Source of the DNA: Sphingomonas sp.
GTDB taxonomy: Bacteria > Pseudomonadota > Alphaproteobacteria > Sphingomonadales > Sphingomonadaceae
DNA: 64,000 bases
Assembly: GCF_017304635.1 (NCBI RefSeq)
Contig: NZ_JAFKMA010000004.1
Location: 124,001-188,000, forward strand
Reading direction: 5' to 3'
Position numbers and translations under genes: made by a program. This document shows, one piece after another, positions 1-41,512 of this stretch (its first letter is position 1; the number at the start of each line of letters is the position of its first letter). The notes below the pieces were generated by a model that saw nothing but the letters and a program-made list of their open reading frames with translations, ran no database searches and was not told where the DNA came from.

Positions 1-348
1 GCGGTCCCGGCGATCGGGATGCTGGCGATCGGACTGGCGCCGCTCTGGGCGCGCCTGCGTCAGCATTGGGCGCGTGCGGCGGCGGTCGCGCTGCTCGGTG
101 TATCGGTGGCGATCAACCTGGCGATCGCCGCCGCCAACGTGACCACGCCCGATACGTATCGCTTCCCGCTGTGGGACCCGATCCTCACGGTCGACTGGCC
201 GAACGGCGCCTTGCGCACGCTGCCGAGCGATTTCCTCGGGTGGAGCCCCGTCGCCGGGGTCGCGCTCTACCTCGCGCTCGCGCTGCCGCTCGGCATCCTG
301 CTCTTGGCGAACGAGCGGCGAGCGCATAGGGTCGCGCCCGCTACGTGA
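1..348 (+). CDS. C-terminal end of an integral membrane protein (5' truncated)
   Basis: The reading frame is open from the first base, so the start lies outside the window and only the last 115 residues are visible. They contain two clear hydrophobic helices, at about visible residues 25-45 and 82-103, and the tail of an earlier one at 2-16. Between the helices lies a roughly 35-residue polar stretch rich in Pro and Trp, followed by a short basic C-terminus (NERRAHR). This is a polytopic inner-membrane protein. No family motif can be recognised in the visible part, so no function is assigned. Confidence 0.6.
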   Translation, partial: AVPAIGMLAIGLAPLWARLRQHWARAAAVALLGVSVAINLAIAAANVTTPDTYRFPLWDPILTVDWPNGALRTLPSDFLGWSPVAGVALYLALALPLGILLLANERRAHRVAPAT

Positions 349-434
349 CTGGCGAGACCGTGGGCCACCACAAGGAAGCGTAGCCGCGAGACGCCGTTCG
401 CCTGGGCATTCTTTCGTCGAGAGGAGTCCCTGTC

Positions 435-1133
435 ATGGCCAGCCTGCCCCCCGTCAGCGTCGCGTTCCTGCTGTTCCCCAACGTCACGCAACTCGATCTG
501 ACCGGCCCGGCGCAAGTGCTGTCGCGGCTCGGCAACGTGACGCTCGATCTGGTGTGGCGGTCGCGCGATCCGGTGATGACCGACGCCGGCTTCGCGATCC
601 AGCCGACCGCGACCTTCGCCGAAGTGACGCGCGCCGACATCCTGTGCGTGCCGGGCGGGTTCGGGATCAACGACGTGATCGCCGACGACGCGGCGATGGA
701 CTGGATCCAGCGGATCGCGGCGGACGCGACCTGGATCACCAGCGTGTGCACGGGATCGCTGGTGCTGGGTGCGGCGGGGCTGCTGCGCGGCTATCGCGCC
801 GGGTGCCACTGGGGGCAGCGCGAGATGCTGAGCCTGTTCGGGGCCGAGCCGGTCGATCAGCGAATCGTGGTCGATCGCAACCGCGTGACCGGCGGCGGGG
901 TGACGGCGGGGATCGATTTCGCGCTGAAGCTGATGGCGCTGATCCGCGGCGAAACGTTTGCGAAGGCGGTGCAGCTCAGCCTGGAATACGACCCCGCGCC
1001 GCCGTTCGACGCCGGATCGCCGGCCAAAGCCGGGCCGGAGCTGGTCGAAACCTATCGCCGCCGCGTCGCGCAACTGGCGCCGACGCGCGACGACGACCTG
1101 CGCGCGCTGGCGATCAGGCGCGGGTTTTCCTGA
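435..1133 (+). CDS. DJ-1/PfpI family protein, isonitrile hydratase-like
   Basis: A 232-residue protein of the class I glutamine amidotransferase-like (DJ-1/PfpI) superfamily. The nucleophile elbow SVCTGSLVLGAAGLL places Cys105 followed by Thr106, and Asp21 lies in QLDLTGP. This Asp/Cys/Thr set matches the catalytic residues described for Pseudomonas isonitrile hydratase InhA (Asp17, Cys101, Thr102) with an offset of four. InhA hydrates isonitriles to N-substituted formamides; the physiological substrate here is unknown. There is no AraC-type C-terminal helix-turn-helix, so this is not a GlxA-type regulator. The start is fixed by GGAG about 8 nt upstream of the ATG. The 3' end overlaps the convergent dedA gene by 20 bp. 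Confidence 0.8.
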   Translation: MASLPPVSVAFLLFPNVTQLDLTGPAQVLSRLGNVTLDLVWRSRDPVMTDAGFAIQPTATFAEVTRADILCVPGGFGINDVIADDAAMDWIQRIAADATWITSVCTGSLVLGAAGLLRGYRAGCHWGQREMLSLFGAEPVDQRIVVDRNRVTGGGVTAGIDFALKLMALIRGETFAKAVQLSLEYDPAPPFDAGSPAKAGPELVETYRRRVAQLAPTRDDDLRALAIRRGFS

Positions 1134-1780: not shown

Positions 1781-3232
1781 TCAATCGACCCGCGCCGCCG
1801 CCATCCGCACGTCCTCGACGAACCGCGCATATTCCTCACGCCTGGCCGTTTCGTCGGGCAGGCGCAGCAGGTAGCTCGGGTGGACGGTGATCCACGCTTC
1901 GCCGGCACCATCGGGCAATTCCAGCGCGCGACCGCGCTCGCGGCTGATCGTCACCGTGCGGCCGAACAGCGATCGCGCGGCGGTCGCGCCCAGCGCCACG
2001 GTGACCTGCGGCTTGATGATCGCCTGTTCCTGCTCGATCCACCAGCGGCAGGCGGTGATCTCGCCGGCGTCCGGCTTGGCATGGATGCGGCGCTTGCCGC
2101 GCAGCTCGTACTTGAAGTGCTTGACCGCGTTGGTGACGTAGACGCGCGCACGGTCGACTCCCGCTTCGGCCAGCGCGCGGTCGAACATCTGGCCGGCGGG
2201 GCCGACGAACGGGTGTCCGGCCAGATCCTCCTGATCCCCCGGCTGCTCGCCGACGAACATCAGCCGCGCATCGACTGGCCCTTCGCCGAACACGGTCTGC
2301 GTCGCGTGGCGGTAGAGGTGGCAGCGGGTGCACGCCATCGCCTCGTCGCGCAGGGCCTCCCACGCCGCCGCGATATTGCCGCCGATCTTGGCCTTGGCGG
2401 TCGCCACCATCACACTCTCCCGCGCTTGCGCATTCGCGATCAGCTGCGGCACCAACGCGGTTTCCGGCATGTTTTTCCAATATTTACGCGGCATTTCCTT
2501 CAGCATCGCGCCGACCTTGACGCGCGCCGGGTTGAAGATCGACGCGTAATAGGTCTTCCACACCGCCTCGACCGGATCGCCGTCGGGCGCATCCGCCTTG
2601 GTCGCGCCCGGCCCTTCGCTGAGCCGCTTGCCGTCCCAGTGAATCGCGATCTCCGGCGTCAGGATCGACCAGCGCATCGTCGCGAAGCGGTTGACGAAGA
2701 ACGCGGCGTTGGCGCGGACGATGTGGTGCTCGGGCTCGAACCAGGCGACGTATTGGTTGGCGGCACCGGCCCGCTCTCCCACCCGACCTCCCACGGCAGC
2801 ATCATATGGGAGGTCGGGTGGGGGAGCGGGCTGGTGCGGCACTTCGCGAAAACGCACGAACGCGCGCATCTTGTGGATGTCGCGGCGGACTTCCTTGGCG
2901 AGTTTCTCGATCCGGCGGACGAGCGGATCGGCCTGGTCCTCGAGCAGCTTCGGCTGGTCGCGTAACCGCACCAGCAACGTGTGCAGCAACGCGAACCGCT
3001 CGCGATCGCGGTGGAGCAGGGCATTGCGCGCGAGGTCGATGAACGGTCGCGGCACCGAAAACGCGCCCGCCGCCGGCGTGGTCGACTCGGCTTGACCGGC
3101 GAAGAGGTCGCCGGCCACGTCGCCGACCTGCCACACGACCTGGTCGGGCGGGACATGATCGAGCACCAACCCGCGCACCGCATCGCGCCACCCGTCGAAA
3201 TCGTCCTCCGCGTCGAGCGTTACGACGCGCAA
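1781..3232 (-). CDS. UdgX-type uracil-DNA glycosylase fused to an N-terminal DUF4130 domain
   Basis: 483 residues in two domains. The N-terminal DUF4130 part (about 1-265) is the probable DNA-metabolism module typically paired with UdgX. The C-terminal part (about 266-483) is a family 4-like uracil-DNA glycosylase with GEQPGDQED (328-336), Fe-S cysteines at 301, 304 and 395, the diagnostic KRRIH loop (380-384) and HPSYL (451-455). In UdgX the KRRIH His forms a covalent bond with the abasic site made by uracil excision, producing a permanent DNA-protein adduct. The TTG start was chosen because it gives the usual DUF4130 N-terminus (RVVTLDAEDDFDGW); it sits 2 bp after the hemerythrin stop codon. 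Residues about 133-157 are encoded by an inserted 75-bp palindromic repeat (see separate entry), replacing the short turn normally between FREV and YVAWFEPEH. Confidence 0.92.
   Translation of the reverse strand: MRVVTLDAEDDFDGWRDAVRGLVLDHVPPDQVVWQVGDVAGDLFAGQAESTTPAAGAFSVPRPFIDLARNALLHRDRERFALLHTLLVRLRDQPKLLEDQADPLVRRIEKLAKEVRRDIHKMRAFVRFREVPHQPAPPPDLPYDAAVGGRVGERAGAANQYVAWFEPEHHIVRANAAFFVNRFATMRWSILTPEIAIHWDGKRLSEGPGATKADAPDGDPVEAVWKTYYASIFNPARVKVGAMLKEMPRKYWKNMPETALVPQLIANAQARESVMVATAKAKIGGNIAAAWEALRDEAMACTRCHLYRHATQTVFGEGPVDARLMFVGEQPGDQEDLAGHPFVGPAGQMFDRALAEAGVDRARVYVTNAVKHFKYELRGKRRIHAKPDAGEITACRWWIEQEQAIIKPQVTVALGATAARSLFGRTVTISRERGRALELPDGAGEAWITVHPSYLLRLPDETARREEYARFVEDVRMAAARVD
2763..2837. 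repeat. Palindromic element, copy A, inserted in frame inside udgX
   Basis: Inverted repeat with arms at 2764-2793 and 2807-2836 (28 of 30 positions pair) and a 13-nt loop; the closing G/C pair extends it to exactly 75 bp, or 25 codons. It belongs to the same family as copies at 20675, 36011 and 41409. On the coding (minus) strand it adds a Pro/Gly/Arg-rich peptide to the DUF4130 domain without shifting the frame. The two mismatches between arms may reflect decay or selection on the encoded peptide. Confidence 0.9.
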
Positions 3233-20667: not shown

Positions 20668-20674
20668 CGTCTAA

Positions 20675-20755
20675 CGGTGCCGGCCCGCTCCCCCCACCCG
20701 ACCTCCCAACGGCAGTATCATATGGGAGGTCGGGTGGGGGAGCAGGCCGGCACCG
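20675..20755. repeat. Palindromic element, copy B
   Basis: 81-bp inverted repeat starting CGGTGCCGGCCCGCTCC, ending in its complement, with a 14-nt loop (ACGGCAGTATCATA) nearly the same as in copy A inside udgX. It lies between the convergent gntR and nat genes. It could terminate both transcripts as a hairpin but has no T-tract. Confidence 0.92.
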
Positions 20756-35990: not shown

Positions 35991-36010
35991 TGATCGCCTC
36001 TCGGCGATTA

Positions 36011-36092
36011 GCGGTGCCAGCCCGCTCCCCCGCCCGACCACCCATAGCATATCCTGGCTGGGTGGTCGGGCGGGGGAGCGGGCTGGCACCGC
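36011..36092. repeat. Palindromic element, copy C
   Basis: Perfect 34-bp inverted repeat (36011-36044 and 36059-36092) around a 14-nt loop, TAGCATATCCTGGC. The arms differ from copies A and B at several places, but each change is mirrored in the other arm. It lies between the candidate RNA/terminator and xth. Confidence 0.93.
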
Positions 36093-36167
36093 ATCCGCGC
36101 GTGAGCGCGGCAAACAACGCCGCGGCGGGCAGGTGACGAAACCTTCCCGACCTCCTAAGTCCCCCCC

Positions 36168-41401: not shown

Positions 41402-41408
41402 TTTTATC

Positions 41409-41490
41409 GCGGCGCCGGCCCGCTCCCCCACCCGGCCGCCCATACGATATCCTGATTGGGCGGCCGGGTGGGGGAGCGGGCCGGCGCCGC
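41409..41490. repeat. Palindromic element, copy D
   Basis: Perfect 34-bp inverted repeat (41409-41442 and 41457-41490) with loop TACGATATCCTGAT, most like copy C. It lies within the DUF3576-leuS intergenic gap of a co-directional operon, so it would form a hairpin inside the transcript, 22 bp before the leuS start codon. Confidence 0.93.
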
Positions 41491-41512
41491 TATCAACGGA
41501 AGTTGGCCAGAA

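Follow-up and report, generated by a model that had tools for sequence, protein, structure and literature searches.

Rickettsia palindromic elements (RPEs) are palindromic repeats of 105-146 bp (PMC2229807) which, according to the available parts of two articles, lie both between genes and in frame within protein genes, where they are tolerated (PMC2229807, PMC10969869). For R. conorii, one of the two gives 44 RPE insertions in metabolic genes (PMC10969869). REPs, as presented in the available sections of a 2013 survey, occur mostly 3′ of genes, between unidirectional or convergent genes, with some in repair genes (Di Nocera 2013, PMC3733652). Two Xanthomonas recB genes carry a REP at about the same site, and the GTAG and CGTC units consist of a stem of 5-13 bp (8-9 bp for CGTC), a loop of 2-20 nt and a tag. 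The same sections deal with RAYTs and list intragenic REPs for a number of bacteria, 'S. alaskensis' and 'E. lithoralis' among them, with many of these REPs in DNA-repair genes (PMC3733652). Perfect inverted repeats have also been described inside coding genes of Nematomorpha mitochondria, in the part of that article available (PMC6649704).

In-frame palindromic insertions tend to be presented as single accidents that the protein tolerates. Both 'S. alaskensis' and 'E. lithoralis' are free-living members of the Sphingomonadales. An earlier note on the present DNA had called coding insertions of this kind rarely reported in free-living sphingomonads, which is too strong a statement given the intragenic REPs listed in the 2013 survey (PMC3733652). 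Here we analyse a palindrome in the udgX gene of a Sphingomonas sp. In the literature on sphingomonad palindromes that we covered, which included few subscription papers, no description of this element was found.

The palindrome within udgX

The window, by which we mean the whole stretch of 64,000 nucleotides analysed, belongs to a 3.18-Mb genome (G000), which is of Sphingomonas type judging by the named relatives that its UdgX has. Features are collected in Table 1. The palindrome reported earlier inside udgX is real, but it extends over 81 bp (2760-2840) and not over 75 bp at 2763-2837. Its 34-bp arms are 91% complementary and enclose a 13-nt loop. The RNA fold of the palindrome has an energy of -70.5 kcal/mol, compared with a mean of -36.4 for shuffled sequences (z = -9.9), and none of 200 shuffles equalled it. 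No Rfam family reached its gathering score over the element. A permissive Rfam scan returned 27 sub-threshold matches, mostly to microRNA hairpin models, and these we take to be chance resemblances of a long hairpin.

Table 1. Positions in the window of the udgX gene, the palindrome copies and the adjoining small hairpins
Feature	Position	Strand	Description and basis
udgX	1781..3232	-	TIGR03915/DUF4130 domain and UdgX-type uracil-DNA glycosylase domain, 483 aa, palindrome-bearing; ORF, family matches, orthologues
Codons of residues 132-160	2753..2839	-	29 residues, compared with a 7-residue loop in G145; AF2 model
PAPPPDLPYDAAVGGR			predicted peptide stretch of the palindrome-derived loop in UdgX
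Palindromic element	2760..2840	.	arms 2760-2793 and 2807-2840, loop 2794-2806; repeat finding, RNA fold
TTCGCGAA	2843..2850	.	native mini-palindrome in the FRE codons, separated by 2 bp from the palindromic element; by analogy with the flanking small hairpins a candidate target hairpin
Second copy	20672..20755	.	between convergent genes; G145 without element at the same place
Small hairpin TTCAGC-TCG-GCTGAA	20762..20776	.	beside the second copy; hairpin scan
Small hairpin ATCGCC-TCTC-GGCGAT	35993..36008	.	immediately left of the third copy; in G145 too
Third copy	36009..36092	.	common to G145, flanking small hairpins too
Small hairpin CCGCGC-GTGA-GCGCGG	36095..36110	.	right of the third copy; similar one in G145
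Fourth copy	41403..41496	.	40-nt arms, 95% complementary; G145 without element at the same place

The start codon of udgX, TTG, was set by eye and by orthologue alignment. The frame is open across the entire product, palindrome included, in agreement with the earlier description of an insertion without a frameshift. The product matches TIGR03915 at residues 7-258 and TIGR03914 (UdgX) at residues 260-477, and the Pfam families DUF4130 and UDG. It also contains the words GEQPG, KRRIH and HPS, which are UdgX motifs in the available text of PMC10359453. The motifs of the downstream UdgX domain are present, as had been claimed. The 25 codons said to be added have to be corrected, since the spacing from FREV to YVAW is 29 residues (132-160) in G000 versus 7 in the syntenic relative G145, a net gain of 22 residues.

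In an AlphaFold2 model of UdgX (45 sequences, mean pLDDT 85.8, pTM 0.50), residues 132-159 lie between strands 129-131 and 160-164, and the block means of pLDDT over residues 131-160 are 67, 47 and 59. The model puts the palindrome site at a turn, itself of low confidence, in a beta-hairpin predicted for the DUF4130 domain. Across UdgX orthologues the length of this turn without an insert varies from 3 to 20 residues and is mostly 7 or 8 (106 out of 168 loops, a total that includes duplicates and carriers). We infer that the palindrome-encoded stretch probably forms a tolerated loop.

Elsewhere in the window, a gene of the DJ-1/PfpI family at 435-1133 (+) is immediately preceded by a ZMP/ZTP riboswitch (RF01750, 62 bits) at 335-414 (+).

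A dispersed repeat and its neighbouring hairpins

A search of G000 with the udgX palindrome gave 80 alignments corresponding to at least 40 distinct places; this may be a low count because 40 of 65 candidate matches were scored. The best other match has an E value of 2.4e-31 at 96% identity, and the repetition of the palindrome is not due to chance. Using gene calls from a simple codon-usage caller (our own script), 37 of the 40 copies fell between called genes, the udgX copy was intragenic and two overlapped ORFs, by 46 and 20 bp, each of them questionable as a whole or in its start. The genome-wide count that the earlier note had suggested as a check thus yields at least 40 copies with one clearly inside a gene. 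The accompanying claim that the palindrome is found elsewhere only between genes is true of 37 among the 39 remaining copies, the exceptions being the two at doubtful ORFs. Among the 37 intergenic copies, 32 are at most 40 bp from the 3′ end of a gene and 4 lie between divergent genes.

The two arms of a copy resemble each other more than they resemble the arms of other copies (95% within a copy versus 81% across copies; as high in none of 5000 permutations). This comparison used the 34 of 40 G000 copies with arms of at least 28 bp, six being dropped. At most of the variable stem positions the same change is found in both arms, a pattern of co-variation. Arm-to-arm length keeps the reading frame in only 1 of the 30 scorable copies among the 39 others in G000. 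This one copy, L027, is also the nearest to the udgX copy, at 96%.

We also compared the places of the G000 copies with the orthologous sites of two other genomes. The element was present at 1 of 31 sites mapped in G145 (absent from 30) and at 3 of 24 mapped in G028 (absent from 21); these counts exclude the unmapped copies (9 of 40 for G145, 16 of 40 for G028), and the two copies lying in one interval at L016 were counted twice. Presence/absence polymorphism at orthologous sites, a trait of MITEs, is thus found, and with most sites lacking the element the earlier proposal that the palindrome spreads as DNA was borne out. The 51 length differences between occupied and empty sites have a median of 111 bp, with 33 between 90 and 131 bp and two negative. 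Since this median exceeds the 82 bp of the palindrome, flanking DNA came along or was replaced. No target-site duplication could be read in the comparison with G145 and G028, whose flanks are too diverged.

On a wider scale, matches to the element turned up in 86 out of 151 genus genomes sampled, with the largest numbers of first-look candidates in G075, G110 and G030, and on three plasmid records (NZ_CP017076.1, NZ_CP079204.1 and NZ_AP017899.1), the element-bearing plasmids being typed as mobilizable or conjugative. Phage records gave no match to the element. The plasmid places number six in Novosphingobium resinovorum, four in Sphingomonas sanguinis and two in Sphingopyxis sp. FD7. The search for a mobilising enzyme was directed at Y1 transposases and found none for the element: Y1_Tnp (PF01797) has 0 matches in G000, and a Y1 transposase is present in 16 of the 151 genus genomes. 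A RAYT was rejected as mobiliser on the ground that G000 has no Y1 gene.

Small hairpins often adjoin the element. A stem of at least 6 bp was found within the adjoining 35 bp at 29 of 80 flanks in G000 and at 44 of 96 flanks in other genomes, or about 40% overall, in a scan of 88 copies of which those from other genomes were mostly the best match per genome. When the rate was followed over eight offsets from 0 to 400 bp, it was high only at 0 and 2.5-11% at the rest (20-400 bp); a less favourable control, made of 619 overlapping windows taken 3′ of other genes, had small hairpins in 12%. Frequent stems are GTTTCAGC/GCTGAAAC, AAACTCGC/GCGAGTTT and ATCGGC/GCCGAT. In a composite form of the palindrome, at L360-L365 in genomes G194, G090, G132 and G040, one arm is enlarged by a further conserved segment of about 54 bp, and several of these copies stand beside hairpins of the GTTTCAGC/GCTGAAAC type. 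The palindrome together with adjoining small hairpins 3′ of genes seems to be a repeat that is widespread among sphingomonads. Inspection by eye, without a count, showed no small hairpins in empty sites of G145 and G028; the hairpins may therefore travel with the element instead. At udgX, the scan for stems of at least 6 bp found none beside the G000 copy, the 8-bp TTCGCGAA with its stem of only 3-4 bp being too short for the scan. Just after the udgX insert of genome G633 a small hairpin, CCGGC-GAA-GCCGG, can be seen by eye.

Carriers at one udgX base and their possible origins

The udgX segment was matched in 251 of 295 genus genomes, and among the matches listed at least five carry the palindrome: G000, G132, G291, G174 and G194. 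A family search, made with a blend of carrier sequences, gave 56 matches among 397 sampled family genomes and a sixth carrier, G633, from another genus. This comparison with orthologues, which had also been suggested earlier, shows that most species are without the insert. The picture of a one-off insertion has to be given up, since the same udgX base bears a palindrome in no fewer than six species, belonging to two genera. All six inserts are open and in frame, and in all six CCGCACC directly follows the V/L codon of FRE[V/L]. Arm-to-arm length keeps the frame in the five udgX copies measured (5/5), the G633 insert being open as well. The 19-bp CCGCACCAGCCCGCTCCCC is found in G000 only at udgX; it occurs in 30 of 295 genus genomes and is mostly intergenic among the loci examined. 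A left end private to udgX was ruled out, as the CCGCACCAG end occurs elsewhere too.

The cores of the inserts differ between carriers. The udgX copy of G291 is 94% identical to a copy at C20 in its own genome versus at most 87% in the four other carrier genomes searched, and the G633 copy has no close counterpart in its own genome, the best other match being 88%. For the G174 copy there is no close own-genome copy among the matches listed. G132 (L044) and G194 (L107) have an identical 63-bp core in opposite orientation and so most likely share one insertion; if this copy is common by descent, a loss or two gains are needed beside the non-carriers G040 and G090. The L044/L107 core looks as if the hairpin had been flipped in place. 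The G194 copy also contains the extra segment of about 54 bp, which matches five further places in its own genome and some in relatives. In G026 (G026:C1:2463175, L329) a copy starts 39 bp from the end of the udgX match, on the 5′ side of the gene, with a loop that hardly differs from the one in the udgX insert of G291.

A UdgX tree was made from 100 of 166 loci, with insert columns removed and a midpoint root; the other 66 loci were dropped either as duplicates or for want of the I[HR]KM.AF motif by which rows were chosen, a criterion that also took out the Bradyrhizobium outgroup. Carriers are scattered on this tree, and the five genus carriers are likewise scattered on an rpoB tree of 30 chosen genomes, so that monophyly of the carriers finds no support on either. 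The UdgX neighbour of G000 is the non-carrier G145 and that of G132 and G194 the non-carrier G040; G291 groups with L255, G174 with L246 and L249 (support 0.13) and G633 with L333. With equal costs and a root without the element, 6 steps suffice.

We favour recurrent insertion by a non-autonomous mobile palindrome at a preferred, tolerated, in-frame site of udgX, a reading that we judge to have an even chance of being correct. The mobile unit would be a GC-rich sphingomonad palindrome of about 82 bp, retained as a rule immediately 3′ of genes, and a trans-acting enzyme other than a resident RAYT would place it beside short hairpins. The RFRE[V/L] codons can form a very short hairpin, TTYCGYGAA, and we propose that udgX may for this reason have been hit, or its copy renewed, repeatedly at the same base. 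Selection would keep only those copies that have a frame-preserving loop length and fall at the tip of the beta-hairpin in DUF4130, a place where a gain of 22 residues or more may do little harm. Several points count against this reading: the CCGCACC end common to the six copies, the single copy shared by G132 and G194, the G174 and G633 copies with no close own-genome match, the searches for a target-site duplication in the diverged flanks and for a mobilising Y1 enzyme that found none, the stem of only 3-4 bp in the candidate hairpin at udgX, and the empty sites in which no small hairpins were seen. A bolder statement, namely that this is a new class of mobile palindrome which a putative enzyme places at short hairpins, usually terminator-like ones and at udgX accidentally the hairpin of the RFREV codons, with one codon of this repair gene reinvaded across genera and selection keeping the frame, is offered tentatively and seems to us rather doubtful.

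A single ancient in-frame insertion, whose core was later overwritten or flipped by ectopic gene conversion and which was cleanly lost from most lineages, is a little more doubtful still. One ancestor is the simpler account of the CCGCACC end common to the six copies and of the restriction of CCGCACCAGCCCGCTCCCC to udgX in G000. The left junction is also identical in the six carriers, the inverted core of G132 and G194 can be read in the same way, and the composite-subfamily segment of G194, with its five further own-genome places, is what conversion would give. The cost lies in the losses, of which one gain demands 13 or more on the 100-row UdgX tree and a root already carrying the element demands 17; these are low counts because the tree left out many non-carriers. 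Moreover, non-carriers have ordinary loops of 3 to 20 residues, so every loss would need a clean, in-frame excision. Spread of an insertion-bearing udgX allele between species by short-tract homologous recombination would explain the patchy distribution on gene and species trees, and the presence of the element on mobilizable or conjugative plasmids is in keeping with it. We consider it unlikely. Third-codon positions in the flanks are not consistently more alike between two carriers than between a carrier and a non-carrier, and no clear signal of recent transfer of the segment was seen in 25-codon windows, a weak comparison of low power with about 25 sites each; just before the insert, the likeness of G000 to G291 and G174 is slightly higher than to G145. 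The cores of G000 and G291, besides, resemble copies in their own genomes.

Retention of the hairpin for a function, either regulation of mRNA or translation or a new protein contact made by the loop, would account for the stem pairing retained in coding copies, which is perfect in G291, and for the G132 and G194 cores being identical over 63 bp when their neighbouring windows of 25 codons show differences of 12 and 15%. However, intergenic copies pair equally well, and the cause may therefore lie in mutation (arm correction) or in conversion. In G174 and G633 the stem shows decay, most species have no palindrome in udgX, and the loop is of low confidence in the AF2 model; we regard a function as quite improbable. 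An artefact, whether a misassembly or a pseudogene taken for a gene, is hardly credible: we found no point in its support, and the full open frame, the UdgX motifs and in-frame inserts in six separate assemblies speak against it. Palindromes with different cores and orientations at the same udgX base in six or more species from two genera make up a test system of natural replicates for comparing how targets are chosen, how the reading frame filters insertions and how palindromes are renewed.

Relation to described palindromes

Unlike the coding palindromes of Nematomorpha, which are found in animal mitochondria, the udgX element is bacterial. It resembles the GTAG/CGTC REPs in lying mostly 3′ of genes, between unidirectional or convergent ones, with one copy in a repair gene, and the two Xanthomonas recB genes with a REP at about one site are a further parallel. 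In contrast to their short stems, its stem is about 34 bp long, and an inner hairpin of at least 6 bp occurs in 0 of 80 arms. A tag-type word stands at the outer ends of the element in 1 of 80 cases for GTAG and in 5 of 80 for the CGTC type; of the 28 flanks with a small hairpin, one has a CGTC-type tag directly before it and none has GTAG. Assignment to the GTAG/CGTC-tagged REPs was rejected on both tag and stem. REPINs are dispersed, non-autonomous palindromes, and so is the sphingomonad element, which differs from the REPIN/RAYT system in that G000 has no Y1_Tnp. The palindrome differs from RPEs in its length of about 82 bp, in being GC-rich and in being clearly intragenic in only 1 of 40 G000 copies. 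By description it is nevertheless like an RPE such as RPE-1, because it stands in frame in a protein gene, and the RPE-like behaviour suggested earlier, a dispersed palindrome read as an in-frame peptide in a low-confidence predicted turn, is upheld.
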